A stretch of DNA of 64,000 nucleotides from positions 1 through 64,000 of IMG/VR virus record IMGVR_UViG_3300025648_000526; one strand, 5' to 3'. The notes under the pieces are model-generated. The model did not search any database. It saw only the letters and a program-made list of their open reading frames with translations, and had not been told where the DNA came from. Positions 842 to 32,115 of this stretch are shown here, in pieces. The translations under genes were made by a program, and so were the position numbers. The stretch's first letter is position 1; each line of letters begins with the position of its first letter. Source of the DNA: a virus.

Positions 842-1387
842 ATGGCATTTAACGTAGCAGAATTTAGGTCACAGTTGATTGGTGACGGTGCCCGTCCTAA
901 TTTATTTTCAGTTTCTTTGAGCTTTCCGTTCATAGCTGCAAACTCTGGAGCTGCATCACAAAAAGTAACCTTTATGGCAAAAACAGCACAATTGCCTGGT
1001 TCTACTATTGGTACAGTTCCTTTGTTTTACTTTGGTCGTGAATTAAAGTTTGCTGGAAATAGAACATTTACGGATTGGACATTACAAGTTATCAATGATG
1101 AAGATTTCATTGTTCGTAATTCTTTAGAAAGTTGGATGAATAGTATCAATAGTCATCAAGGTAACCTTCGTAACCCAGCTGCTTTTAATCCAGCAGGTTA
1201 CAGTACCGATGCTGCTGTTACTCAATACGGTAAAACAGGTAACACTCTAAAAAATTACTTATTTGTAGGTTTATTTCCTGTTGATATCGCTCCAATTGAT
1301 TTAGATTGGGGTTCAAACGATGCTATTGAAGAGTATTCAGTAACATTTGCATATCAATATTGGACATCAGTACCAACAACAACTTAA
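842..1387 (+). CDS. gp19: Tail tube protein gp19
   Basis: A 181-residue protein of the T4 gp19 family, which stacks as hexameric rings to form the inner tail tube through which DNA is injected. Family features are the N-terminal 'FRSQLIGDGARPNLF' segment, a central 'MAKTAQLPGSTIG' stretch and a C-terminus describing the final beta strands ('YSVTFAYQYW'). Its length fits T4 gp19 (163 aa). It follows the sheath gene with an AGGAG ribosome site 7 bp before ATG and is followed by a strong terminator, which probably closes the tail operon. Confidence 0.95.
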   Translation: MAFNVAEFRSQLIGDGARPNLFSVSLSFPFIAANSGAASQKVTFMAKTAQLPGSTIGTVPLFYFGRELKFAGNRTFTDWTLQVINDEDFIVRNSLESWMNSINSHQGNLRNPAAFNPAGYSTDAAVTQYGKTGNTLKNYLFVGLFPVDIAPIDLDWGSNDAIEEYSVTFAYQYWTSVPTTT

Positions 1388-1402
1388 TGATATATATTAT
1401 AT

Positions 1403-1437
1403 GGGGAGAACTTCGGTTCTCCTCATTATGTTTTTTT
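1403..1437 (+). terminator. Rho-independent terminator after gp19
   Basis: A GC-rich stem GGAGAAC/GTTCTCC closed by a TTCG tetraloop (1403-1424) is followed by ATTATG and then seven T residues at 1431-1437. It separates the tail genes from the portal operon. Confidence 0.85.
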
Positions 1438-1454
1438 GAATTGAGGAAGATACT

Positions 1455-1556
1455 ATGACAATAGCATATATAAACCACAACTCATCTACAATGATAGGTA
1501 TGACACCTATCAACCATATTTTATTTAATGTAAAAGGTGAATCAACACATGGCTAA
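1455..1556 (+). CDS. Possible 33-aa leader peptide overlapping the portal start
   Basis: An ATG at 1455 preceded by a good Shine-Dalgarno (GAGGAAG) opens a 33-codon frame that ends at 1554-1556, just past the portal ATG at 1549 and in a different frame. The peptide has no recognisable domain. It could couple translation into the portal gene, or be chance. Only the ribosome site and the overlap support it. Confidence 0.25.
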   Translation: MTIAYINHNSSTMIGMTPINHILFNVKGESTHG

Positions 1557-3177
1557 CAATAGCAAATTCAGTTTATTTGGTTTTACCATAGCTCGTGGTA
1601 AAACAGAAGACGAACAAAGAGTCCAACAATCCTTCACGCCTCAGACGAATGACGATGGCGCCTTAACGATTACTTCAGCCGCTTATTACGGTACATATGT
1701 AGACCTAGACGGCACAGCAAAGAATGAAGTAGAGTTAATCTCTCGATATCGTGAAATGGCTATGCAGCCTGAAATTGAATCAGCCATTGATGATGTTATT
1801 AACGAAGCTATCACACAAGATGATGATGGCAAGAATATCAAAATTGTTTTAGACGCTTTAAATCAACCAGAAAAAATTAAAGATGCCATTAAAGCAGAGT
1901 TTAATACAATCGTTAGATTATTAAACTACAATAATATGGCACAAGATATCTTCCGTAGATATTATATTGATGGTAGAATGTTTTACCACATTATTATCGA
2001 TAGAGAAAACCCTATTGCTGGTATCAAAGAATTAAGATATATTGATCCACGAAAAATTCGTAAAGTAAGAGAAATCAAAAAGAAAAAAGATGAACGCACA
2101 GGCGTTGATGTAATGAACGTGGTCAATGAATATTACATCTTTAATGATAAAGTAACATCTGGCTCTTCCTCTAATTTTGGACCAGTTGGTGTTCGTATTA
2201 CAACAGATTCTATTATATCAGTTGTTTCTGGTCTAATGGACTCTCGTAGAGCAGTGGTATTATCATACTTACATAAAGCTATCAAACCACTCAATCAATT
2301 AAGAATGATTGAAGACGCTACTGTTATTTACCGTATCTCAAGAGCACCTGAAAGACGTATATTCTATATTGACGTTGGTAATTTACCAAAATTAAAAGCA
2401 GAACAATACCTCCGTGACATTATGGTCAAGTATAAAAATAAACTTGTCTATGATGCTAACACAGGTGAAGTAAGAGATGACCGTAAGTTCCTTTCAATGA
2501 TGGAAGACTTTTGGTTACCTCGTAGAGAAGGTGGCAAAGGCACAGAGATTGCTACATTACCAGGTGGTCAAAATCTTGGTGAATTAGAAGATGTAAAATA
2601 CTTTGAAAAGAAATTATACAAAGCACTTAATGTTCCTATCTCACGATTAGACCCAAATCAATCTGGTTTCTCTTTAGGTAGAACATCAGAAGTTACTCGT
2701 GACGAATTGAAGTTTGCTAAATTTGTTGATAGATTAAGAAATAAGTTTGCTGACTTATTCGACCAAGCATTAAGAGTTCAATGTGTTCTTAAAGGTATTT
2801 GTACCAATGATGAATGGACAGAATTTAAAGAACATATCTTTTATGACTTCATTAAAGACAACAACTTCTCTGAATTAAAAGATGCTGAATTGGTAAGAGA
2901 AAGATTATCATTACTTTCTAATGTTGATCCATATACAGGTCGTTATTTCTCACAAGCGTGGATTCAAAGAAATGTATTACGCATGACTGATGATGAGATT
3001 AAAGAGATGACAAAAGAAATGGATGAAGAAAAAGAGTTGGGTCTTGGATTGCCTGTTGGTGTTACAAGTCAGGTAGCACAACAATCAATGTTGAATCAAT
3101 TACCAGATGCTGGTGAAGCAGATGATGATTCAACCAATGAACAACTTACAATACACAAGTTAAAAAAGATTTTATAA
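1549..3177 (+). CDS. gp20: Portal vertex protein gp20
   Basis: The 542-residue portal protein forms the dodecameric ring at one capsid vertex. It nucleates prohead assembly and is the channel for DNA packaging and exit. Recognisable T4-like segments are 'PEIESAIDDVINEAI' near residue 80, 'RYIDPRKIRKVREIKK', the long helical 'GGQNLGELEDVKYFEKKLYKALNVP' region (read in parts) and 'LGRTSEVTRDELKFAKFVDRLR'. T4 gp20 has 524 aa. A GTG at 1537 in the same frame is possible, but ATG 1549 lies about 10 bp from AAGGTG and gives the natural N-terminus, so I chose it. Confidence 0.96.
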   Translation: MANNSKFSLFGFTIARGKTEDEQRVQQSFTPQTNDDGALTITSAAYYGTYVDLDGTAKNEVELISRYREMAMQPEIESAIDDVINEAITQDDDGKNIKIVLDALNQPEKIKDAIKAEFNTIVRLLNYNNMAQDIFRRYYIDGRMFYHIIIDRENPIAGIKELRYIDPRKIRKVREIKKKKDERTGVDVMNVVNEYYIFNDKVTSGSSSNFGPVGVRITTDSIISVVSGLMDSRRAVVLSYLHKAIKPLNQLRMIEDATVIYRISRAPERRIFYIDVGNLPKLKAEQYLRDIMVKYKNKLVYDANTGEVRDDRKFLSMMEDFWLPRREGGKGTEIATLPGGQNLGELEDVKYFEKKLYKALNVPISRLDPNQSGFSLGRTSEVTRDELKFAKFVDRLRNKFADLFDQALRVQCVLKGICTNDEWTEFKEHIFYDFIKDNNFSELKDAELVRERLSLLSNVDPYTGRYFSQAWIQRNVLRMTDDEIKEMTKEMDEEKELGLGLPVGVTSQVAQQSMLNQLPDAGEADDDSTNEQLTIHKLKKIL

Positions 3178-3180
3178 ATA
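3173..3180 (+). promoter_or_regulatory. T4-type late promoter TATAAATA before the prohead core operon
   Basis: An exact TATAAATA overlaps the gp20 stop and lies 32 bp before the next ATG. In T4 this -10 element is recognised by RNA polymerase carrying gp55, and a gp55 gene is present at 11.8 kb. Confidence 0.6.
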
Positions 3181-3211
3181 GAATAAGGTTTAATTTTTTG
3201 GAGACAATAAC

Positions 3212-3421
3212 ATGGACGATACAAGAAACATAATTGATTACGCAATGGACGAAAATGGTGTAGAGTTTAGAAATGCATTATATGCTTCTATTCACGACAA
3301 AGTTTCTGCACACATTGAAGCAAAAAAACAAGAAATTGCTCAAAATTTAATTGCGCAATCAAATGATGTAGATGTTGAAGACGTAGAACAAGAAGAGGAA
3401 ACTCCTGTTGAAGAATCTTAA
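3212..3421 (+). CDS. Small acidic prohead core protein (gp67-like)
   Basis: A 69-residue protein with a helical N-terminal half ('FRNALYASIHDKVSAHIEAKKQEIAQNL') and a very acidic C-terminal tail of Glu and Asp. This composition and its place between portal and protease match gp67-type prohead core proteins of T4-like phages, which help shape the scaffold core and are degraded by gp21. It has a GGAG ribosome site. The identification rests on synteny and composition more than on clear residue identity. Confidence 0.65.
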   Translation: MDDTRNIIDYAMDENGVEFRNALYASIHDKVSAHIEAKKQEIAQNLIAQSNDVDVEDVEQEEETPVEES

Positions 3422-3953
3422 AGAATTCTTAGCAGAACAAACTCGACCAGAAGTGGTTGAAGATGTTGTATTGCCTGAAGAATTAGAGGCAACTGACGAA
3501 CCATTATATGAAGATGATGGCAAACAAAATTCTCATCATCCAATGGATCCTCCTGCCGTTCTAGTAATGCGTAGAAAGTGGATTAGACAGTTTCCTAATA
3601 ATCAACGAGTAGCGATGTATTACGTTGATAAGATTAATAAATATGTAACCGTGCCTTATACTGCTATGCAATGGACAAATGCAGGTGCAAATGAAGAGGC
3701 AGAGTATTCTGGTGAATATATCGAAGAAGATATTATTCATCATTTAAAAGGTATTGTTGATGGCCATACTGCAAAATCATATAAATTTGCCGATGGTAAA
3801 ACAATGAAAATTGACGCTCAAACAGCTAATGCTGTATTGAAAGTTCATGGCGCTTTAAATGATGAAAACAAGAAAAAAGTATCAGATATGGCACGTAAAA
3901 GTAAACAACACTTTGGTAAGGTCGTAGACTTTGCCTGGAAACATTTAAAATAG
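3408..3953 (+). CDS. Late head-region protein with a capsid-targeting-like N-terminus
   Basis: A 181-residue protein starting with TTG at 3408 behind AGAGGAA, overlapping the previous gene by 14 bp. The first ten residues (MKNLKEFLAE) resemble the capsid targeting sequence of T4 internal proteins, which ends at an (L/I)xE site cut by the gp21 protease. An acidic stretch follows, then a basic folded domain from about residue 50 ('VMRRKWIRQFPNNQRVAMYYVDK') and a Lys-rich C-terminus. The domain is not one I can name. It is encoded among prohead core genes, so an internal or core protein is the likeliest role (inference). Confidence 0.6.
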   Translation: MKNLKEFLAEQTRPEVVEDVVLPEELEATDEPLYEDDGKQNSHHPMDPPAVLVMRRKWIRQFPNNQRVAMYYVDKINKYVTVPYTAMQWTNAGANEEAEYSGEYIEEDIIHHLKGIVDGHTAKSYKFADGKTMKIDAQTANAVLKVHGALNDENKKKVSDMARKSKQHFGKVVDFAWKHLK

Positions 3954-14221: not shown

Positions 14222-15933
14222 TTATATTTCAAAAATTACGATGGAAGAATATTCTTTCCACACCTAACGTCTTTACTGAAATTAATTTAGTAAGGTCACC
14301 TAATACTCTAATCATAGGCAAAAATGGTGCAGGTAAATCCACTATTCTTGATGCGCTATGTTTTGGTTTATTTGGTAAACCATTTCGTAAAATACCTAAA
14401 GCATCTTTACTTAATTCTATCAATCAAGCAGAAGGCATTGTTGAAGTAGAATTTTCTATTGGCCAAAAACAATATAAAGTTATTCGTGGTATTAAACCTA
14501 ATACATTTGAAGTTTATCTTAACGGCAAGTTAGTAGACCAAGATGCTAAATCAGTAGACTATCAAGAGCAATTAGAAAAGCATATTCTTAAACTCAATTA
14601 TAAATCATTCACACAAGTGGTTATATTGGGTTCTGCTTCATTTGTTCCGTTCATGCAATTATCACCAGGTGATAGAAGAGCAATCATTGAAGACTTATTA
14701 GATATTCAAATATTCTCAACAATGAATTCTGTTGTTAAAGATAAGATGTCCATTATTAAAGATAGTTATACCAAAAACAAATATGATATGGACTTAACTG
14801 CTGAAAAAATTAAACTTCAGAAAGAGGCCATTGAAGAGCATAAGAAACACAATGATTCAGAAATAGAAAAAAAGAAAAACGAAATAGAAACATCAGAGCA
14901 ACAAATAGCACAATTACTTGAAGACTGTGTTTTAGTCCAAAAGCACATTGATGTATTACAAAGTAAGATTAATGATAAACTTAGCATTGAAACGAAATCT
15001 AGAAAACTTCTACAACTTGAAGCTAAATTAGAATCTAATGTTAAAAAAATTGAAAAGGATATAACATTTTATGAAGAAAACGACAACTGCCCAACCTGTA
15101 AACAGAATATCGAGGAGTCTTTTAGAACAGAGCAAGTTGATACTCGAAGGACAAAACTTGGTGAAATCACAACAGGACTCCAAGGACTCGCATCCCAAAT
15201 TGAATCAGCTAATAGAAGAATTATTGAAATCCAAGGAATAATTAAACATATTCAAGAACACAATAATGAGATTGTTAAACACAACTCTACAATATCTGCT
15301 GTTCAAACATATATTAGTAAATTACAAACAGAAATACAAGACCTAACATCTCATAAAGATAACCTTGAAGATGAGAATGCTAAATTAAAAGAACTTAAAG
15401 AAGCTCTTGCTGAATTGATTGCAAAACAGGAAGAATTATCTGTTGAAAAACAATATCTAGAAATTGCTTCATCATTATTAAAAGATACAGGTATCAAAAC
15501 AAAGATTATTCGCCAATACTTACCTATCATGAATAAATTGATTAATAAGTATTTGGCTGCAATGGATTTCTTCGTGAATTTTAATATCAATGAGAATTTT
15601 GAAGAAACAATTAAATCTAGACACCGAGATGAATTTAGTTATGCTAATTTTTCAGAAGGCGAAAAGATGAGAATTGATTTGGCACTATTATTTACATGGC
15701 GCCAAATTGCTAAACTAAAGAATTCTACAAATACCAATCTATTAATATTAGACGAAGTGTTTGATTCTTCTTTAGACGGTGTAGGTACGGAAGAGTTTTT
15801 AAAACTAATACACGATATGCGAACTGATACGAATGTATTTGTCATCTCTCACAAAGGTGACCAATTGTTTGATAAGTTCCGTTCAATAATCAAATTTGAG
15901 AAAATTAATAACTTTAGTCAGGTGGCAAAATGA
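14218..15933 (+). CDS. gp46: Recombination ATPase subunit gp46 (Rad50/SbcC-like)
   Basis: A 571-residue SMC-like ATPase: Walker A 'IGKNGAGKS' at residues 33-41, long coiled coils with a zinc hook 'CPTCKQ' near residue 293, the ABC signature 'NFSEGEKMRIDLAL' and Walker B 'LLILDEVFDSSLDG'. It is the ATPase partner of gp47. It overlaps the next gene by 4 bp. Confidence 0.97.
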   Translation: MIIFQKLRWKNILSTPNVFTEINLVRSPNTLIIGKNGAGKSTILDALCFGLFGKPFRKIPKASLLNSINQAEGIVEVEFSIGQKQYKVIRGIKPNTFEVYLNGKLVDQDAKSVDYQEQLEKHILKLNYKSFTQVVILGSASFVPFMQLSPGDRRAIIEDLLDIQIFSTMNSVVKDKMSIIKDSYTKNKYDMDLTAEKIKLQKEAIEEHKKHNDSEIEKKKNEIETSEQQIAQLLEDCVLVQKHIDVLQSKINDKLSIETKSRKLLQLEAKLESNVKKIEKDITFYEENDNCPTCKQNIEESFRTEQVDTRRTKLGEITTGLQGLASQIESANRRIIEIQGIIKHIQEHNNEIVKHNSTISAVQTYISKLQTEIQDLTSHKDNLEDENAKLKELKEALAELIAKQEELSVEKQYLEIASSLLKDTGIKTKIIRQYLPIMNKLINKYLAAMDFFVNFNINENFEETIKSRHRDEFSYANFSEGEKMRIDLALLFTWRQIAKLKNSTNTNLLILDEVFDSSLDGVGTEEFLKLIHDMRTDTNVFVISHKGDQLFDKFRSIIKFEKINNFSQVAK

Positions 15934-16499
15934 GTGATGAAATAAAATTTAATACGGAAGAATTAGCAAAACCAACCTTAACAAAGGTACCAGTTGAAAC
16001 ATTTCAATTGGTTCCTGAAACACATCCCTTACTTAAACAGGTTTTACCAGAGTTTGATTTCTCTAAACCTCCTGTTGATCCAAATAAATTCGCTTCTACA
16101 TTGGTAGAAACTTGTAAGGCAAATCACGGTATTGGTTTATCAGCCAATCAATGTGGATTTAATCATAGAGTTTTTGTTATGGGTGCTAATGATGATTATG
16201 TGGCATTTTATAATCCAAAGATTACCAAATTTGAAGGCGAAGCACATATGATTGAAGGATGCTTATCTTTTCCTTTCTTGGCATTACGAATCACTAGACC
16301 TGAAACGATTGAGGTTGAATACCAAGATTTCAATGGTGAAAAGAAAACTGCCAAATTTAGTGGATTATCTGCTCGTTGTTTCCAACATGAATTGGATCAC
16401 ATGAACGGCCTTGTATACACATCAAAAGCAAAACCACTAGCTTTGAAAATGGGTATGGATAAAAGAAATAAAATTTTGAAGAAAATAGGATTAAAATAA
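15930..16499 (+). CDS. def: Peptide deformylase
   Basis: A 189-residue metalloenzyme with the three deformylase motifs: 'GIGLSANQ' (~67-74), 'EGCLSFP' (~109-115, metal Cys) and 'HELDHMNG' (~150, metal His and catalytic Glu). It removes formyl groups from new proteins. Deformylases are recurrent auxiliary genes of marine T4-like phages. It has a ~50-residue N-terminal extension before motif 1. It is tightly linked to gp46 and the next gene. Confidence 0.96.
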   Translation: MSDEIKFNTEELAKPTLTKVPVETFQLVPETHPLLKQVLPEFDFSKPPVDPNKFASTLVETCKANHGIGLSANQCGFNHRVFVMGANDDYVAFYNPKITKFEGEAHMIEGCLSFPFLALRITRPETIEVEYQDFNGEKKTAKFSGLSARCFQHELDHMNGLVYTSKAKPLALKMGMDKRNKILKKIGLK

Positions 16500-25022: not shown

Positions 25023-25379
25023 ATGGACTCTTGGGGTTATCACTTAATTTTGGATGTAAGAGGTTGTGATATTGAAAAAGCAACTAATCCAGATTATATT
25101 CGTGATTTTACTAAAGAATTAGTTAAACGAATAGATATGAAACCTTATGGAGAACCCCAAGTGGTTCATTTTGCTGATAATACTGATTTAGCAGGTTGGA
25201 CAGTATTACAACTAATTCATACCTCTAATATTACTGCTCATTTCTGTGATATTAATGGTGACTTGTATTTAGATGTGTTTTCATGTAAGGAATTCGATGG
25301 AGATGTCGTGGTTCAGTTCCTAAACGATTCTTTTAAACCATTGAGAATAACCTCTAGATATCTTTACAGAACAGCGTAG
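25023..25379 (+). CDS. speD: S-adenosylmethionine decarboxylase
   Basis: A 118-residue SpeD-type proenzyme that makes the aminopropyl donor for spermidine. 'WGYHLILDVRGCD' starts the protein, 'VLQLIHTSNITAHF' contains the Ser at which the chain self-cleaves to form the pyruvoyl group, and 'LYLDVFSCKEFD' holds the catalytic Cys. speD is a known auxiliary gene in cyanophages. Polyamines could serve DNA packaging. It follows tRNA-Trp. Confidence 0.93.
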   Translation: MDSWGYHLILDVRGCDIEKATNPDYIRDFTKELVKRIDMKPYGEPQVVHFADNTDLAGWTVLQLIHTSNITAHFCDINGDLYLDVFSCKEFDGDVVVQFLNDSFKPLRITSRYLYRTA

Positions 25380-26307: not shown

Positions 26308-26512
26308 AGCAGACCCAATGAAACATAAAACGGGCAAACCTAGATTAGGTCCACTAAATCTAAAACAATTAACAGACTTAATAGAAAAAACTCAAGTCAA
26401 AAAAATCAAAGCAAAATTTCAAAGAGAATTGGAACGAAGAAATATTTTGGCAGTAAAGAAACAAGGTTTTAAAGTAAAGAAAAATCAAGTATCAATTAAT
26501 GAAAATCACTAG
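26270..26512 (+). CDS. Small basic protein
   Basis: An 80-residue very basic protein (many Lys and Arg) with a helical middle 'LNLKQLTDLIEKTQVKKIKAKFQREL' (in parts). It starts at ATG 26270 behind GAGGAG. The composition suggests nucleic-acid contact but no motif is recognised. It is the last gene of the unit promoted at 25974. Confidence 0.6.
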   Translation: MATAARVHPGKRKADPMKHKTGKPRLGPLNLKQLTDLIEKTQVKKIKAKFQRELERRNILAVKKQGFKVKKNQVSINENH

Positions 26513-26533
26513 TAACATTTAAGTAATAAATCC

Positions 26534-26562
26534 TTTACTTTTCGTTACATTCCTTATATAAT
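26534..26562 (+). promoter_or_regulatory. Strong promoter for pqqA
   Basis: TTTACT at 26534-26539, a 17-bp spacer and a perfect TATAAT at 26557-26562. It directs a dedicated transcript for the 23-codon pqqA gene. Confidence 0.75.
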
Positions 26563-26567
26563 AATGG

Positions 26568-26589
26568 TGTTAGAGTAGAAATTCTAACA
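26568..26589 (+). promoter_or_regulatory. 5'-terminal hairpin and strong ribosome site of pqqA mRNA
   Basis: TGTTAGA (26568-26574) pairs with TCTAACA (26583-26589), beginning at the predicted +1. A 5'-end hairpin of this kind usually slows mRNA decay. It is followed by a very strong ribosome site AAGGAG at 26599-26604, seven bases before ATG. Confidence 0.65.
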
Positions 26590-26611
26590 TAACCTTTAAA
26601 GGAGATATACC

Positions 26612-26683
26612 ATGTGGACATCACCAGCTGCAACTGAAATGCGTTTTGGCTTCGAAGTTACTATGTATGTAATGAACAAGTAA
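26612..26683 (+). CDS. pqqA: PqqA, pyrroloquinoline quinone precursor peptide
   Basis: A 23-codon gene whose product has the length and layout of bacterial PqqA: Met-Trp start, then 'TEMRFGFEVTMY' with Glu15 and Tyr19 in the exact E-V-T-x-Y arrangement. Those two residues are the ones cross-linked by PqqE on the way to PQQ. In Klebsiella PqqA (also 23 aa) they have the same numbers. No other pqq gene is visible in the window, so the peptide would need host PqqB-E. It sits in its own unit with promoter, 5' hairpin, strong ribosome site and terminator, which suggests high expression. PQQ is the cofactor of methanol and other quinoprotein dehydrogenases. Confidence 0.92.
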   Translation: MWTSPAATEMRFGFEVTMYVMNK

Positions 26684-26706
26684 TTAACGATTCAGTTTAC
26701 TAAATA

Positions 26707-26736
26707 AAACGAGAGCCTAAAAACTCTCGTTTTTTT
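26707..26736 (+). terminator. Rho-independent terminator after pqqA
   Basis: AAACGAGAG/CTCTCGTTT stem (26707-26732) around an eight-base loop, with a T-run through 26736. Confidence 0.93.
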
Positions 26737-27054: not shown

Positions 27055-29112
27055 TTATTTTGAGGTGGCACGATAAGTGCCGTCCCAATTTGCAGGTAAT
27101 CCTTCTTCCATTCTTTCTATCATTTTAGAATAGTATTCTTTTATGGTAACATCATCATTGTTTAACATTTTTCTAGCCCAATCAATTGCTTTATCCCAAT
27201 TACCACGATAATATTCTTTTAGATATTCATTGTGCATGTAAGCAATAGTTTTGCCTACTGTATAAATTTTGACACCTTCTGTTTTACCTTTAACTGCTAT
27301 GTTGTCTAATTCAACAACGCTATAATTATCTTTAACTAATTCAGCAGTTAATGGACCAAGAATAATCTTAACGCCATAGGGTTTAGATTGTCCTTCAAGT
27401 CTACTTGATAGGTTGACTGCATCTCCGAGGCAAGTGTAATCAAAACGATAGCGGCTACCCATATTACCAACAACAACACTACCAGTATTGAGCCCAATCC
27501 CCATTCCGAACGGCGGTATGCCTTCTTTTTCAATTTCTTTATTAAATTCATCTAAATCTCCTAACATTTCTAAAGCTGTTTTTACGGCATTGATGGCATG
27601 GTCTTTATCATCAAGAGGTGCATTCCAAAAAGCCATCTGAGCATCACCAATATACTTATCTAGCGTTCCATTATTATCTAAAATCTTTTGTGTCATAGCA
27701 GTCATATATCGGTTCATGATAGAAGTTAAACCTTGAACGTCTTTACCATAGTGTTCTGATATTGTGGTGAATCCACGAACATCAGTAAACATAATAGTTA
27801 AATCTTTTGTTTCACCACCGAGTTTTAATAATTCTGGATTCTTTTGTAATTTTTCAACAAGTGCTGGTGATAGGTACGTTCCAAATTGTTTTTTGATTTG
27901 TAATTTTTGATTTAACTCACTTATAAATTTAACAGTATACGCATGAGCATAAACAAGACAAAGAGTAAGAATAGGAAAGATACAGTCCACCAAATAATTG
28001 TAATGATTAAAGGTATAATGAGAACCATAATATAAAGAAACAATAATAGTAACAATAAAGATAATAGCATATTTCCACCTCGATAATAAAATTAATAATA
28101 TAGACATCATAATTGTGAATAAAAGTTCGGCACCAGTAGCCCAATCAGGTCGTTCTATATTGACATTATTAGCTAAGGTGCCGATTACAGCAGCCTGCAC
28201 ATCTTGAGGCCATACTGAACCTATACTTGTAGGTAAAGGATTGCCTAATCCTGAAGCAGTTACTCCAACAATAACTATTCCTTTGTTAAAGTTTTTTGGT
28301 AGATTTACTGCTGAAACAGAATTTGATTTTTGTGACCAATCAACCCATATACGACCAAGTGAGTCTGTTGCAATTGGTCTAAAACTTGGTATTCGCATCT
28401 TCTCAACTCCGTTCTCATTAAGTTTGACTTGAAATGTTGAGTCACCAGACATAACCCTTAACACTTCTAAAGATACACTTGGGTAAATATTACCATTATA
28501 TCCAACGAACAAAGGTATTCTACGATTAACACCGTCTATTTCAGGTAATGTGTTTGTTATTCCAACTCCAGCAGCCGAAGATTCTAATGACGGAATGTTA
28601 GCAATAATACCTGGATAATTTAAAATAGTATTGATGTTTTCTGAACCAATAATAACAGAACCAGGTTTCTTTGCTGTATTTTTATTTGATTGTGAAGGAG
28701 AGTTTACTAAAATTACAGGATGGTCTTTGATTGTATCTTCTAATGCTTTGTCACCACCTAATCGGTCGGCTTCAGGCATCATTATATTCCATACAACTAA
28801 ACCGGCATTATGAGCATACAACTGAGCAATTAAATTGGCATATTGGTCACGTTTAAATGGCCATTGACCATAACGGTCTAAAGTGTTTTCATCAATATTA
28901 ACCGTATAGATATTATTAACGGTTTGAGTTTTGCCTGAAATGAGAGTGTCAAAATATCGTAATCGGATTGATTCGATAAAGTTAGAATTGGAAACAGCAA
29001 TCACTAACGCTAAGGTTAGTAATGCTGTCCATGGTGATAATAGATATTTCTTAAACAAGTGATAATAAAGTTTGTGTTGCTGTAACCAACCATCTATAGG
29101 CAGTTTCATCAT
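27055..29112 (-). CDS. CHASE2-domain class III adenylate/guanylate cyclase
   Basis: A 685-residue membrane enzyme. Domains: one N-terminal transmembrane helix (~28-44), an extracytoplasmic CHASE2 sensor (~45-325), three transmembrane helices (~330-410), and a cytoplasmic class III cyclase (~435-620). Cyclase residues are visible: metal Asp444 in 'DVRGFT', the second metal Asp490 in 'KYIGDAQMAFW', 'GIGLNTGSVVVGNMGS' and 'YTCLGDAVNLSSRLEG' with the transition-state Asn and Arg. Base specificity is uncertain but the layout is that of bacterial adenylate cyclases. CHASE2-cyclases are known from bacteria; here it ends a phage curli block. It overlaps the previous gene by ~60 bp and lacks a clear ribosome site. 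Confidence 0.92.
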   Translation of the reverse strand: MMKLPIDGWLQQHKLYYHLFKKYLLSPWTALLTLALVIAVSNSNFIESIRLRYFDTLISGKTQTVNNIYTVNIDENTLDRYGQWPFKRDQYANLIAQLYAHNAGLVVWNIMMPEADRLGGDKALEDTIKDHPVILVNSPSQSNKNTAKKPGSVIIGSENINTILNYPGIIANIPSLESSAAGVGITNTLPEIDGVNRRIPLFVGYNGNIYPSVSLEVLRVMSGDSTFQVKLNENGVEKMRIPSFRPIATDSLGRIWVDWSQKSNSVSAVNLPKNFNKGIVIVGVTASGLGNPLPTSIGSVWPQDVQAAVIGTLANNVNIERPDWATGAELLFTIMMSILLILLSRWKYAIIFIVTIIVSLYYGSHYTFNHYNYLVDCIFPILTLCLVYAHAYTVKFISELNQKLQIKKQFGTYLSPALVEKLQKNPELLKLGGETKDLTIMFTDVRGFTTISEHYGKDVQGLTSIMNRYMTAMTQKILDNNGTLDKYIGDAQMAFWNAPLDDKDHAINAVKTALEMLGDLDEFNKEIEKEGIPPFGMGIGLNTGSVVVGNMGSRYRFDYTCLGDAVNLSSRLEGQSKPYGVKIILGPLTAELVKDNYSVVELDNIAVKGKTEGVKIYTVGKTIAYMHNEYLKEYYRGNWDKAIDWARKMLNNDDVTIKEYYSKMIERMEEGLPANWDGTYRATSK

Positions 29113-29647: not shown

Positions 29648-30712
29648 TTAGTTGCTCTGTTGTTTAATAGTTATACTATTGGTTGTTTGGTCTTGATTTT
29701 TCAAATTTACTGTAACACCATTTTGTATGATATTTATATTATATCCTTTGTCTTTATCTATTAATACTGTAGCACTATCTTTAACCGTTCTTTGTATCAT
29801 CCAATAAGTATTTTTATCAAAAATATACACTTGATTTAAAGAGTTATAACCTACCACAAAAGTTGCTAATATCATATTATCAAGAGCATTTGTTAAATAA
29901 TTTGTGTCTAACGGATTTACATCTAATTCATTAAACCCAGCATAAGGGTCTTTAAAAACTTTTGCATCTAAAGCGTTTTGTTCTAATCCCGTAAATTCTA
30001 AAGCAGAACCTGATTTATTGATTATTTCAGCTTGTATTCTTTCAATGATTTGTTTTGGTGGTTTAACAATAAGCATATTATCAATAGATGATTCAGATAA
30101 TGCTAACAAAACAGGTTTTAATGGTTTAATTTCGGATGATTTTGTTACTGTAGCTTGAAACGCTTGGTTTAAAACTACTTTACCCATGGCTGTGCTAACT
30201 TCAATTGAACCAACTGAACCATCTGGATTTGGTAACAGAATAATAAGAGATTGTCCTATCTCATCTACAGTCATTGTGAATGCTGTACCACGAACAGCAA
30301 CTGAAGCGGTCGGAGTATTGATTGCTACATTTTTATTATTTTCGTGTGCGATATTACCAGATGCATAACGAACAGTTCCCATTGTTACATTGAGAGCTAA
30401 TTTACCTGCACCTTTTTTATTGGGGTCATAGACAAATTCGTCTATAAGAAGTTTTGAATGTTCTGTGACTTTTACTTGAGTTTTATCTTCAAATGTAATG
30501 CCTACTATTCCATTGCCTGTTTGAACAATATCATTACTATCTATATTTGATTTAGGTTTAGCCTCTATTACATCTTTATTTCTAGTAATAGAGGCTGGAC
30601 CTTTTTGTTCAGTTATAGAACCAATTACCGCCCAACTAGTGTTGGATAACAGAAACAGAAGCGTTGTTACCAGTAAGATTAACAATCGCACTATTTGGGT
30701 TGGTCGTACCAT
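29648..30712 (-). CDS. FecR-domain secreted protein
   Basis: A 354-residue protein with an N-terminal signal ('LLILLVTTLLFLLSNTSWA') and a FecR-type domain (~35-185): 'TGNGIVGITFEDKTQVKVTEH', 'NVTMGTVRYASGNI', 'NTPTASVAVRGTAFTMTVDE' and 'MGKVVLNQAFQ'. FecR domains of this stand-alone type are periplasmic and often lie beside CHASE2-cyclases in bacteria. The C-terminal ~170 residues are not recognised. The first 77 bp overlap the end of the curlin gene. Confidence 0.85.
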   Translation of the reverse strand: MVRPTQIVRLLILLVTTLLFLLSNTSWAVIGSITEQKGPASITRNKDVIEAKPKSNIDSNDIVQTGNGIVGITFEDKTQVKVTEHSKLLIDEFVYDPNKKGAGKLALNVTMGTVRYASGNIAHENNKNVAINTPTASVAVRGTAFTMTVDEIGQSLIILLPNPDGSVGSIEVSTAMGKVVLNQAFQATVTKSSEIKPLKPVLLALSESSIDNMLIVKPPKQIIERIQAEIINKSGSALEFTGLEQNALDAKVFKDPYAGFNELDVNPLDTNYLTNALDNMILATFVVGYNSLNQVYIFDKNTYWMIQRTVKDSATVLIDKDKGYNINIIQNGVTVNLKNQDQTTNSITIKQQSN

Positions 30713-31343
30713 CTTGAGTCACACTTATATTATTTGAATTACCAATATTGTTGATACTAATACTATTACCTTTGCCTGCACCTGTACCATTAGCACCTGT
30801 TTGACTTGTGTTAATAGAGTTACTATTGCCTGCAATCGATATAGTATCTGTAACATTTTTACTGTTTATTTTACTTGTGATAGAGTTATTATTTCCTACA
30901 GCAGTAATACTATAGTTATAACTTCCTGAATCTCTCAATGTACCAATATCTAATATAGAATTATTATTGCTACCTGAAAATGATAAATTTAAATTACCAT
31001 TGTCGGTACCAAAGTTTCCATAATTCAATACAACACCGTTACTATTACCATCTTGAGATATTACTCCTGTAGAACCACCACCAACAAAATTACCTGTGAT
31101 AGAGTTGTTCATACCGTTTTGTGTGATACCTAAATTAATACTGTTACCATCAATCACAAATGATGGACTACCAACATTAGTAGGATCTCCTACCGTGTTG
31201 TTAGAACCTGTTTGTGTAATTGATACTGTAGAATTATCAGCGTTAGTTTGGTCAATATAAACACTATTACCTCCACTATCGACTGCCAAAGCACTAAATG
31301 CTAATAACAAACCCATCACAAAAGTGATAAGCTTACTTTTCAT
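30636..31343 (-). CDS. Curlin-repeat amyloid subunit (CsgA/CsgB-like)
   Basis: A 235-residue protein: signal peptide ('FVMGLLLAFSALA'), then at least seven imperfect repeats of the curlin type, for example 'STVSITQTGSNNTV', 'SINLGITQNGMNNSI', 'STGVISQDGNSNG', 'NISVTQDGTTN'. The repeats carry the Q-x-G-x-x-N element of CsgA/CsgB strand-loop-strand units. Asn, Ser and Gly dominate and there is no Cys. It would be secreted through the CsgG pore encoded upstream and could form amyloid fibres. Whether it is nucleator or major subunit cannot be told; only one is present. ATG 31343 follows AAGGAG. Confidence 0.88.
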   Translation of the reverse strand: MKSKLITFVMGLLLAFSALAVDSGGNSVYIDQTNADNSTVSITQTGSNNTVGDPTNVGSPSFVIDGNSINLGITQNGMNNSITGNFVGGGSTGVISQDGNSNGVVLNYGNFGTDNGNLNLSFSGSNNNSILDIGTLRDSGSYNYSITAVGNNNSITSKINSKNVTDTISIAGNSNSINTSQTGANGTGAGKGNSISINNIGNSNNISVTQDGTTNPNSAIVNLTGNNASVSVIQH

Positions 31344-32115
31344 TCTTTTTCTCCTTAAATTGCCACATACCTTTTTTTTCACCTTGAATAATCAATTGCT
31401 CTACCGCCAGGTCTGTAGCTGCTTTTATGGCGTGTATAGAAGCCTCTGTTTGAGATATTCCTATCTCTTGTTCAAAATTTTGTGTTCCATTATCAAAAAA
31501 CTTAAATATAGCTACACCTGCTGTATAACTCAATATGGTTTTTTGAGCGTTTACTGTTAATAGCACTTCACCTGTTTGTGTGCTAATTGCTCTAATACTT
31601 ACAGTCACCACATCTTCTTGATATTGTGTGTCTGGTCCAATTCCTAACCAACGAACACCAATACCACCTGTTCTTATATTTGTATCATAACTTATAATTC
31701 CGCCTTCAATAATCATACCTGCATACAACATAGGTCTGATTCCAGAAGGATCTCTTGCTTCATCTCTTGCTGAACGAATTAGTTGTCTTTCTTTTAATAA
31801 GTTGTCTATACCAACTCGTTCTACTATTCTAAACCATTTTCCATCACCAGCATCTTCTAATGATTTTAATAATACTGTTTCACCGCCTTGTGTTACAGCT
31901 GATGATAATTTAGCAATTGTAGCAGAATCTTTTCTTTGACCAGTTTTATCAGCAAAACTATAAACAGCTACAACTACTTTACCTTTAGCAGGTTCAGGTA
32001 ATGGAGCTCTAGCCCATTTCATTGGCATAATTTCTGGTTCTTTTTTAATAACATTCATTGGCGGTGTGCAGCCAATTATTGTTATACACATAAGTGCTAT
32101 TAATATTTTTTTCAT
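31333..32115 (-). CDS. csgG: Curli secretion channel CsgG
   Basis: A 260-residue outer-membrane lipoprotein: lipobox 'ITIIGC' with Cys16, then 'VVAVYSFADKTGQRK', 'EDAGDGKWFRIVERVGIDNLLKERQLI' (in parts), 'GGIISYDTNIRTGGIGVRWLGIG', 'DTQYQEDVVTVSIRAIS' and 'KTILSYTAGVAIFKFFD', all characteristic of E. coli CsgG (277 aa). It forms the nonameric secretion pore for curlin. By eye alignment the constriction residues Tyr51, Asn55 and Phe56 of E. coli are replaced by small or other residues. It starts one base after the csgF stop, so the pair is translationally coupled. Confidence 0.96.
   Translation of the reverse strand: MKKILIALMCITIIGCTPPMNVIKKEPEIMPMKWARAPLPEPAKGKVVVAVYSFADKTGQRKDSATIAKLSSAVTQGGETVLLKSLEDAGDGKWFRIVERVGIDNLLKERQLIRSARDEARDPSGIRPMLYAGMIIEGGIISYDTNIRTGGIGVRWLGIGPDTQYQEDVVTVSIRAISTQTGEVLLTVNAQKTILSYTAGVAIFKFFDNGTQNFEQEIGISQTEASIHAIKAATDLAVEQLIIQGEKKGMWQFKEKKNEK

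Follow-up and report, generated by a model that had tools for sequence, protein, structure and literature searches.

A stand-alone pqqA gene with a putative host-type operator in a T4-like phage fragment

PqqA is the precursor peptide of PQQ, and its residues Glu15 and Tyr19 are fused into the cofactor. In cyanophages, the auxiliary genes pstS and phoA are under host PHO-box control. The phage pqqA gene described here resembles these in being an auxiliary gene that appears to be kept under a host regulator, but it would belong to another regulon and encodes a substrate peptide that is consumed, rather than an enzyme or a transporter.

In Methylophilaceae, 3–12 copies of pqqA occur, usually with one set of the other pqq genes (PMC4109929). 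Like the stand-alone chromosomal copies of these bacteria (PMC4109929), the gene studied here is far from pqqBCDE and has the same operator at the same spacing to the -10 element, but it is borne by a phage and lies in a phage-type neighbourhood. Coutinho et al. (2020, PMC7678222) reported a phage PqqA together with methanol dehydrogenase from Lake Baikal, and virus-encoded pqqA, pqqD and pqqE were described as phosphate-solubilising genes in a reservoir study (PMC13188868). The idea of a phage-encoded PqqA is therefore not new. The Baikal population VP_266 resembles our fragment as a T4-like phage with PqqA, a predicted Methylophilaceae host and a peptide deformylase-like gene, whereas it combines pqqA and methanol dehydrogenase in one population and our fragment has no dehydrogenase; the accessible part of that account describes neither operator sharing nor a leader RNA, an intron or a wide occurrence of the gene. 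The OM43 phage literature that we examined does not mention pqqA, and a search of mostly non-subscription journals found no published report of a leader RNA before pqqA or of an intron within it. New here are the operator sharing with host pqqA promoters, the covarying leader RNA before pqqA of some relatives and the group I intron within phage pqqA.

The pqqA locus and its phage context

We analysed a stretch of 64,000 nucleotides, referred to as the window, which comprises positions 1–64,000 of IMG/VR record IMGVR_UViG_3300025648_000526, a virus fragment of 72,584 bases in full. The original prediction was that a short ORF encodes PqqA, with Trp2, Arg11-x-Gly13 and a Glu15-Val-Thr-x-Tyr19 core. 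This ORF is present on the predicted strand (Table 1), and its product passes both curated models, Pfam PF08042 (E=1.7e-9, 37.9 bits, cut-off 21.1) and the NCBIfam equivalog TIGR02107 (E=1.4e-8, 34.4 bits, cut-off 20). The peptide shares its length and all of these residues with the family, including the three residues between Glu and Tyr (E15-x3-Y19), but it is phage-encoded and distant from pqqBCDE. PF08042 had no matches in 14 control genomes, so that the match in the window is not due to chance; PHROGs contained no PqqA match for the peptide. Judged by its sequence, the ORF is confirmed as encoding a true PqqA.

Table 1. Coordinates of the pqqA locus in the window and of RNA elements at related loci
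Feature	Position or locus	Strand	Remarks
Operator-like palindrome TAATGAAAATCACTAGT	26497..26513	+	Host PQQ-regulon type; overlaps end of upstream ORF
Promoter-like pair TTTACT-17-TATAAT	26534..26562	+	Consensus scan, 10/12 consensus bases
5' UTR hairpin TGTTAGA-loop-TCTAACA	26568..26589	+	Directly 5' of Shine-Dalgarno; fold z=-1.5
Shine-Dalgarno AAGGAG (within AAAGGAG)	26599..26604	+	Sequence
pqqA	26612..26683	+	Product MWTSPAATEMRFGFEVTMYVMNK, PQQ precursor peptide, 23 residues
Intrinsic terminator	26706..26736	+	23 nt 3' of stop codon; z=-4.2, 0/200 shuffles
Leader RNA upstream of pqqA	L034, L035, L040, L043, L066, L069, L070, L071, L086, L089, L120, L123, L131, L140		
Leader RNA in hosts	L180:7009-7051, L187:2377-2425		Before tandem pqqA copies
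Intron-split pqqA, both exons held	L345, L347, L386, L353, L332, L381, L383, L394, L411-L414		
Intron-split pqqA, locus ends early	L375, L395		

Judged by its layout, pqqA forms a unit of its own within this fragment of a T4-like phage. The operator-like palindrome scored 18.0 against a host-trained matrix (threshold 9.1, 1% false positives) and is identical in two close relatives, L415 and L416, which retain the whole pqqA arrangement almost base for base. The promoter-like pair did not rise above chance in the consensus scan by itself; its position fits the operator and the gene, and its TATAAT is kept in both relatives. The 5' UTR hairpin, weak by itself, is also conserved in both. Terminator-like sites were found 3' of 59/160 phage pqqA genes, compared with 2 for shuffles.

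The capsid protein of the window is 66% identical to that of Methylophilales phage Melnitz and ~62–64% identical to those of Pelagibacter and cyanobacterial T4-like phages, and its DNA polymerase is ~51% identical to those of cyanophages. The gene thus lies among T4-like capsid and polymerase genes in a viral genome and has homologues in hosts, as an auxiliary metabolic gene does. We infer a Methylophilaceae-type host for this phage. The tRNA-Trp of the window had a match in 0/8 host genomes, a comparison that had no positive control.

The minus strand of the window also encodes a protein that joins a CHASE2 sensor domain to the catalytic domain of an adenylate/guanylate cyclase (27055–29112), the curli genes for CsgG and a protein with curlin repeats (30636–32115) and an adjoining FecR-domain protein (29648–30712). 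The Melnitz paper reported csgF/csgG without csgA/csgB. An S-adenosylmethionine decarboxylase gene lies near pqqA (25023–25379), and a peptide deformylase-like gene was recognised by eye at 15930–16499.

Conservation and distribution of phage pqqA

Degenerate DNA patterns were used to find pqqA in IMG/VR, and the resulting counts are of contigs, not of independent lineages. A pattern for the whole peptide gave at least 120 contigs. So that the test would not be circular, only residues 1–14 were prescribed in a second pattern; among the matches listed, Glu15, Tyr19 and the length of 23 residues were kept in 120/120 viral contigs. A third pattern required the rare codon GTG at position 16 and matched 113 contigs; Tyr19 was present in all 101 that were new. 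The Glu/Tyr pair, central to the original prediction, is thus not lost in relatives. As the frequency of GTG at codon 16 is 8/121, scaling suggests roughly 1,700 IMG/VR contigs with this class of peptide (about 900–3,900), a number that is extrapolated and not dereplicated. Judging from codons 15–23, which are free in the N-terminal pattern, purifying selection acts on the phage PqqA protein (pS 0.75, near saturation; pN 0.07; pN/pS 0.10). An AGGA-type Shine-Dalgarno motif precedes 155/155 viral pqqA genes, whereas in a control region farther 5' it is present in 14/151. Phage pqqA is probably translated, as supported by these sites, by purifying selection and by the peptide-restoring introns found in relatives.

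A search of 50,697 phage records detected the peptide in each of the six cultured Methylophilaceae phages that are sequenced and known to us, namely P19250A, MEP301, Venkman, MEP401, MEP402 and Melnitz (four strains), which all infect Methylophilales. The paper on MEP401 and MEP402 lists Venkman, MEP301 and Melnitz as earlier OM43 isolates and also mentions an incomplete phage, HIM624-A. The gene had been expected to be too short for routine calling, and it is annotated as pqqA in none of the six: no gene is called there in the first five, and in Melnitz a wrong-strand 'hypothetical protein' ORF overlaps it. Other records with the peptide were one spring metagenome phage, two Acinetobacter-labelled contigs and one chance-level match, a weak tblastn match in Escherichia phage ERS-1 (E=10). 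Of the two Acinetobacter-labelled contigs, that of phage MD-2021a (L282, CAKLQF020000010.1) contains pqqBCDE and ppk and looks like mislabelled bacterial DNA.

Phage pqqA was found in ~30 unrelated neighbourhoods and was thus gained or moved repeatedly. It is absent from larger T4-like relatives that share a neighbouring gene (G061–G063, 106–177 kb) and is thus not a core gene of the lineage. Presumably, pqqA follows a subset of phages, by host.

The original prediction also took the peptide as a pointer to a PQQ-making host, and genomes of the presumed host family support this. The commonest Methylophilaceae peptide, MWTTPAATEMRFGFEVTMYVMNK, found 42 times, differs from the window peptide by one residue, and phage peptides are near-identical to, and often the same as, host PqqA. 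Eight Methylophilaceae genomes contained 1–12 copies of pqqA, which is multicopy and dispersed in hosts. PqqE and PqqC were both found in seven of the eight, with pqqC as a single copy, the eighth being a 0.9-Mb single-cell genome. In phages, only the substrate gene was generally found. PqqE scored over the cut-off in 0/57 records (that of the window plus 56 more that carry pqqA), a methanol-dehydrogenase-type quinoprotein was present in one of these (that of L043), and pqqBCDE was near pqqA in 0/155 viral loci. The window fragment contains neither PqqE nor methanol dehydrogenase, but at 72.6 kb it is incomplete, and further PQQ genes could be located beyond it.

Operator, leader RNA and intron

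The upstream regions of host pqqA genes have the palindrome TMATGAWWWTMMTKAG in common, and the operator sequence TCATGAAAATCATGAG is the putative target of a host regulator. An operator weight matrix was refined on 81 Methylophilaceae-type host upstreams, with a 1% threshold. Operators above this threshold were found in 93/156 phage pqqA upstreams (60%) versus 17/1637 for the remaining ORFs in these phage loci (1%), and ~40% of phage pqqA upstreams fell below it. Visual inspection of both hosts and phages had first brought up the motif, so that replication on loci that were fetched later is the fair test; here 63/98 phage pqqA upstreams contained the operator. The spacing from operator to -10 (TATAAT) is 60 nt in the window, peaks at 60–61 in hosts and peaks at 37 and 59–60 in phages. 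The window thus has a host-trained palindrome upstream at host spacing, as do host PQQ-regulon promoters. With two mismatches, the operator pattern occurred 16 times in the whole window versus 17.9, which is chance level, and the site at 26497 is singled out only by its position and its one-mismatch quality. Phage pqqA looks to share the host's own promoter switch.

In six host genomes, the exact operator pattern occurred at 24 distinct sites, whereas a reversed control pattern occurred at 2. Sixteen of the 24 are at pqqA (by pqqA coordinates), one is before pqqB and two are before TonB-dependent receptors. We read these palindrome sites as a candidate regulon for PQQ supply that comprises pqqA, pqqB and PqqU-like importers. 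The pqqA-type palindromes that precede the PqqU-like receptors are at L309:1501-1516 and L315:1501-1516. One receptor was compared with solved structures and was most like the PQQ transporter PqqU/YncD (7e-86); for both, the best NCBIfam match was the PqqU model, below its cut-off, with the ORFs being truncated.

A leader element, CTCAAG-stem-GAYYT...CTC-stem'-TGA..TG, is found upstream of pqqA in part of the window's myovirus group (Table 1). As the first covariation set was partly chosen by complementarity, a flanks-only IMG/VR search is the fair test. It gave 103 contigs, in 99 of which the three unconstrained stem pairs were complementary (~5% expected). In 85 of the 103, pqqA lies within 330 nt; the other 18 are ten with a split pqqA, four chance-like ones with poor pairing and four that end before the full gene can be read. 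A covariance model of the leader (R1) matched in 1.0 Mb only at its 14 training places; later matches were at pqqA in another two phages and before tandem pqqA copies of hosts (Table 1). It found no leader RNA in the window. The element is thus nearly confined to the region before pqqA. Rfam contained no match for the leader RNA and nothing at the window pqqA either. The leader RNA of these relatives has a conserved covarying structure upstream of a gene, as riboswitches do, and is possibly a new riboswitch-type element.

The ten split pqqA genes in the leader search led to a group I intron. It was found in 14 contigs by a dedicated scan and splits the 72-nt pqqA after codon 13, with RF00028 matches in L345, L347 and L386 (E=1e-23 to 2e-14). 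Predicted splicing restores an intact PqqA of 23 residues in 12/12 contigs that hold both exons. At 231–278 nt, the intron in these relatives is three to four times as long as the gene that it splits, and an HNH endonuclease ORF is located downstream in most of them. Homing introns tend to settle at conserved positions of genes that are expressed, a preference that fits pqqA as an important gene. The window pqqA is not split.

Proposed function of phage PqqA and competing explanations

Phage PqqA likely feeds host PQQ synthesis with the substrate that the pathway uses up and thereby sustains methanol dehydrogenases. The phage would carry a self-contained copy of host pqqA, which host RNA polymerase probably transcribes from the promoter with the host PQQ-regulon operator. 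Host PqqD/E, a protease, PqqB and PqqC would then process the 23-residue peptide to PQQ, with Glu15 and Tyr19 becoming the cofactor. PqqA is the only pathway member that is consumed one-for-one with PQQ, whereas PqqB–E are catalysts, so that adding pqqA would raise substrate supply. One small added gene may thus raise a substrate that the hosts themselves amplify (up to 12 pqqA, usually one pqqBCDE set), such that PQQ-dependent methanol dehydrogenases stay charged and energy and carbon keep flowing during infection. We infer operator-driven transcription, processing by host enzymes, an increase in PQQ and a fitness benefit. More PQQ for methanol dehydrogenase, as in the original prediction, would be this benefit, of which neither codon saturation nor a shared operator is proof.

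A peptide without its enzymes could also act as a dead-end decoy that ties up host PqqD/PqqE or the protease, so that PQQ synthesis is reduced or diverted. This is improbable, as in a decoy neither the invariant Glu15/Tyr19 nor the near-identity, often identity, to the host substrate should persist. It is equally hard, or slightly harder, to credit that extra PQQ closes the importer PqqU, a receptor for some phages, and shuts out competitors. PQQ does block a PqqU-dependent E. coli phage (PMC12124388), and PqqU-like receptors in hosts bear the same operator as pqqA; however, PqqU use is known for no methylophage, and PQQ made internally needs export to act.

The strong operator sharing could alternatively reflect titration, in which operator DNA draws off the host regulator and the peptide is secondary. 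As selection is on the protein, and some relatives such as L035, L070 and L089 have pqqA and leader RNA with no operator over threshold, we regard this as very improbable. Least credible is that pqqA is a neutral passenger or that viral bins are contaminated with host DNA, even though host pqqA is multicopy and dispersed and the phage-labelled MD-2021a record looks like host DNA with pqqBCDE. The gene is present in complete cultured phage genomes and has a low pN/pS, and contamination of the viral set was rejected on the lack of pqqBCDE near viral loci.

Supply of consumed substrate to the host pathway is thus the reading that we prefer. A broader view is doubtful but possible: PQQ supply may generally limit methylotroph infection, and phages may have converged on the consumed substrate under the host PQQ regulon, with a new PQQ-sensing leader RNA in some lineages. 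If so, finding stand-alone pqqA in a virome would be diagnostic of Methylophilaceae phages. Phage pqqA would link infection to C1 turnover, could serve as a host marker in virome studies and brings to light the candidate PQQ regulon (pqqA, pqqB, PqqU-like importer). It also makes testable whether a phage can lift a pathway by supplying only its used-up peptide. Among viruses of the methanol oxidisers that abound in the sea and in fresh water, few metabolic genes may be commoner than this 72-nt gene, which is unannotated in cultured methylophages.

Seven viral contigs (L018, L024, L004, L013, L028, L025 and L081) contained other PqqA types, such as RLGFEVTMYFKN and KWETP..., which suggests phages of PQQ makers outside Methylophilaceae. 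In two methylophage contigs, ROSE_3 RNA thermometers scored over the Rfam cut-off (L086:1445-1510 and L071:4506-4572); the downstream gene is perhaps hsp20.
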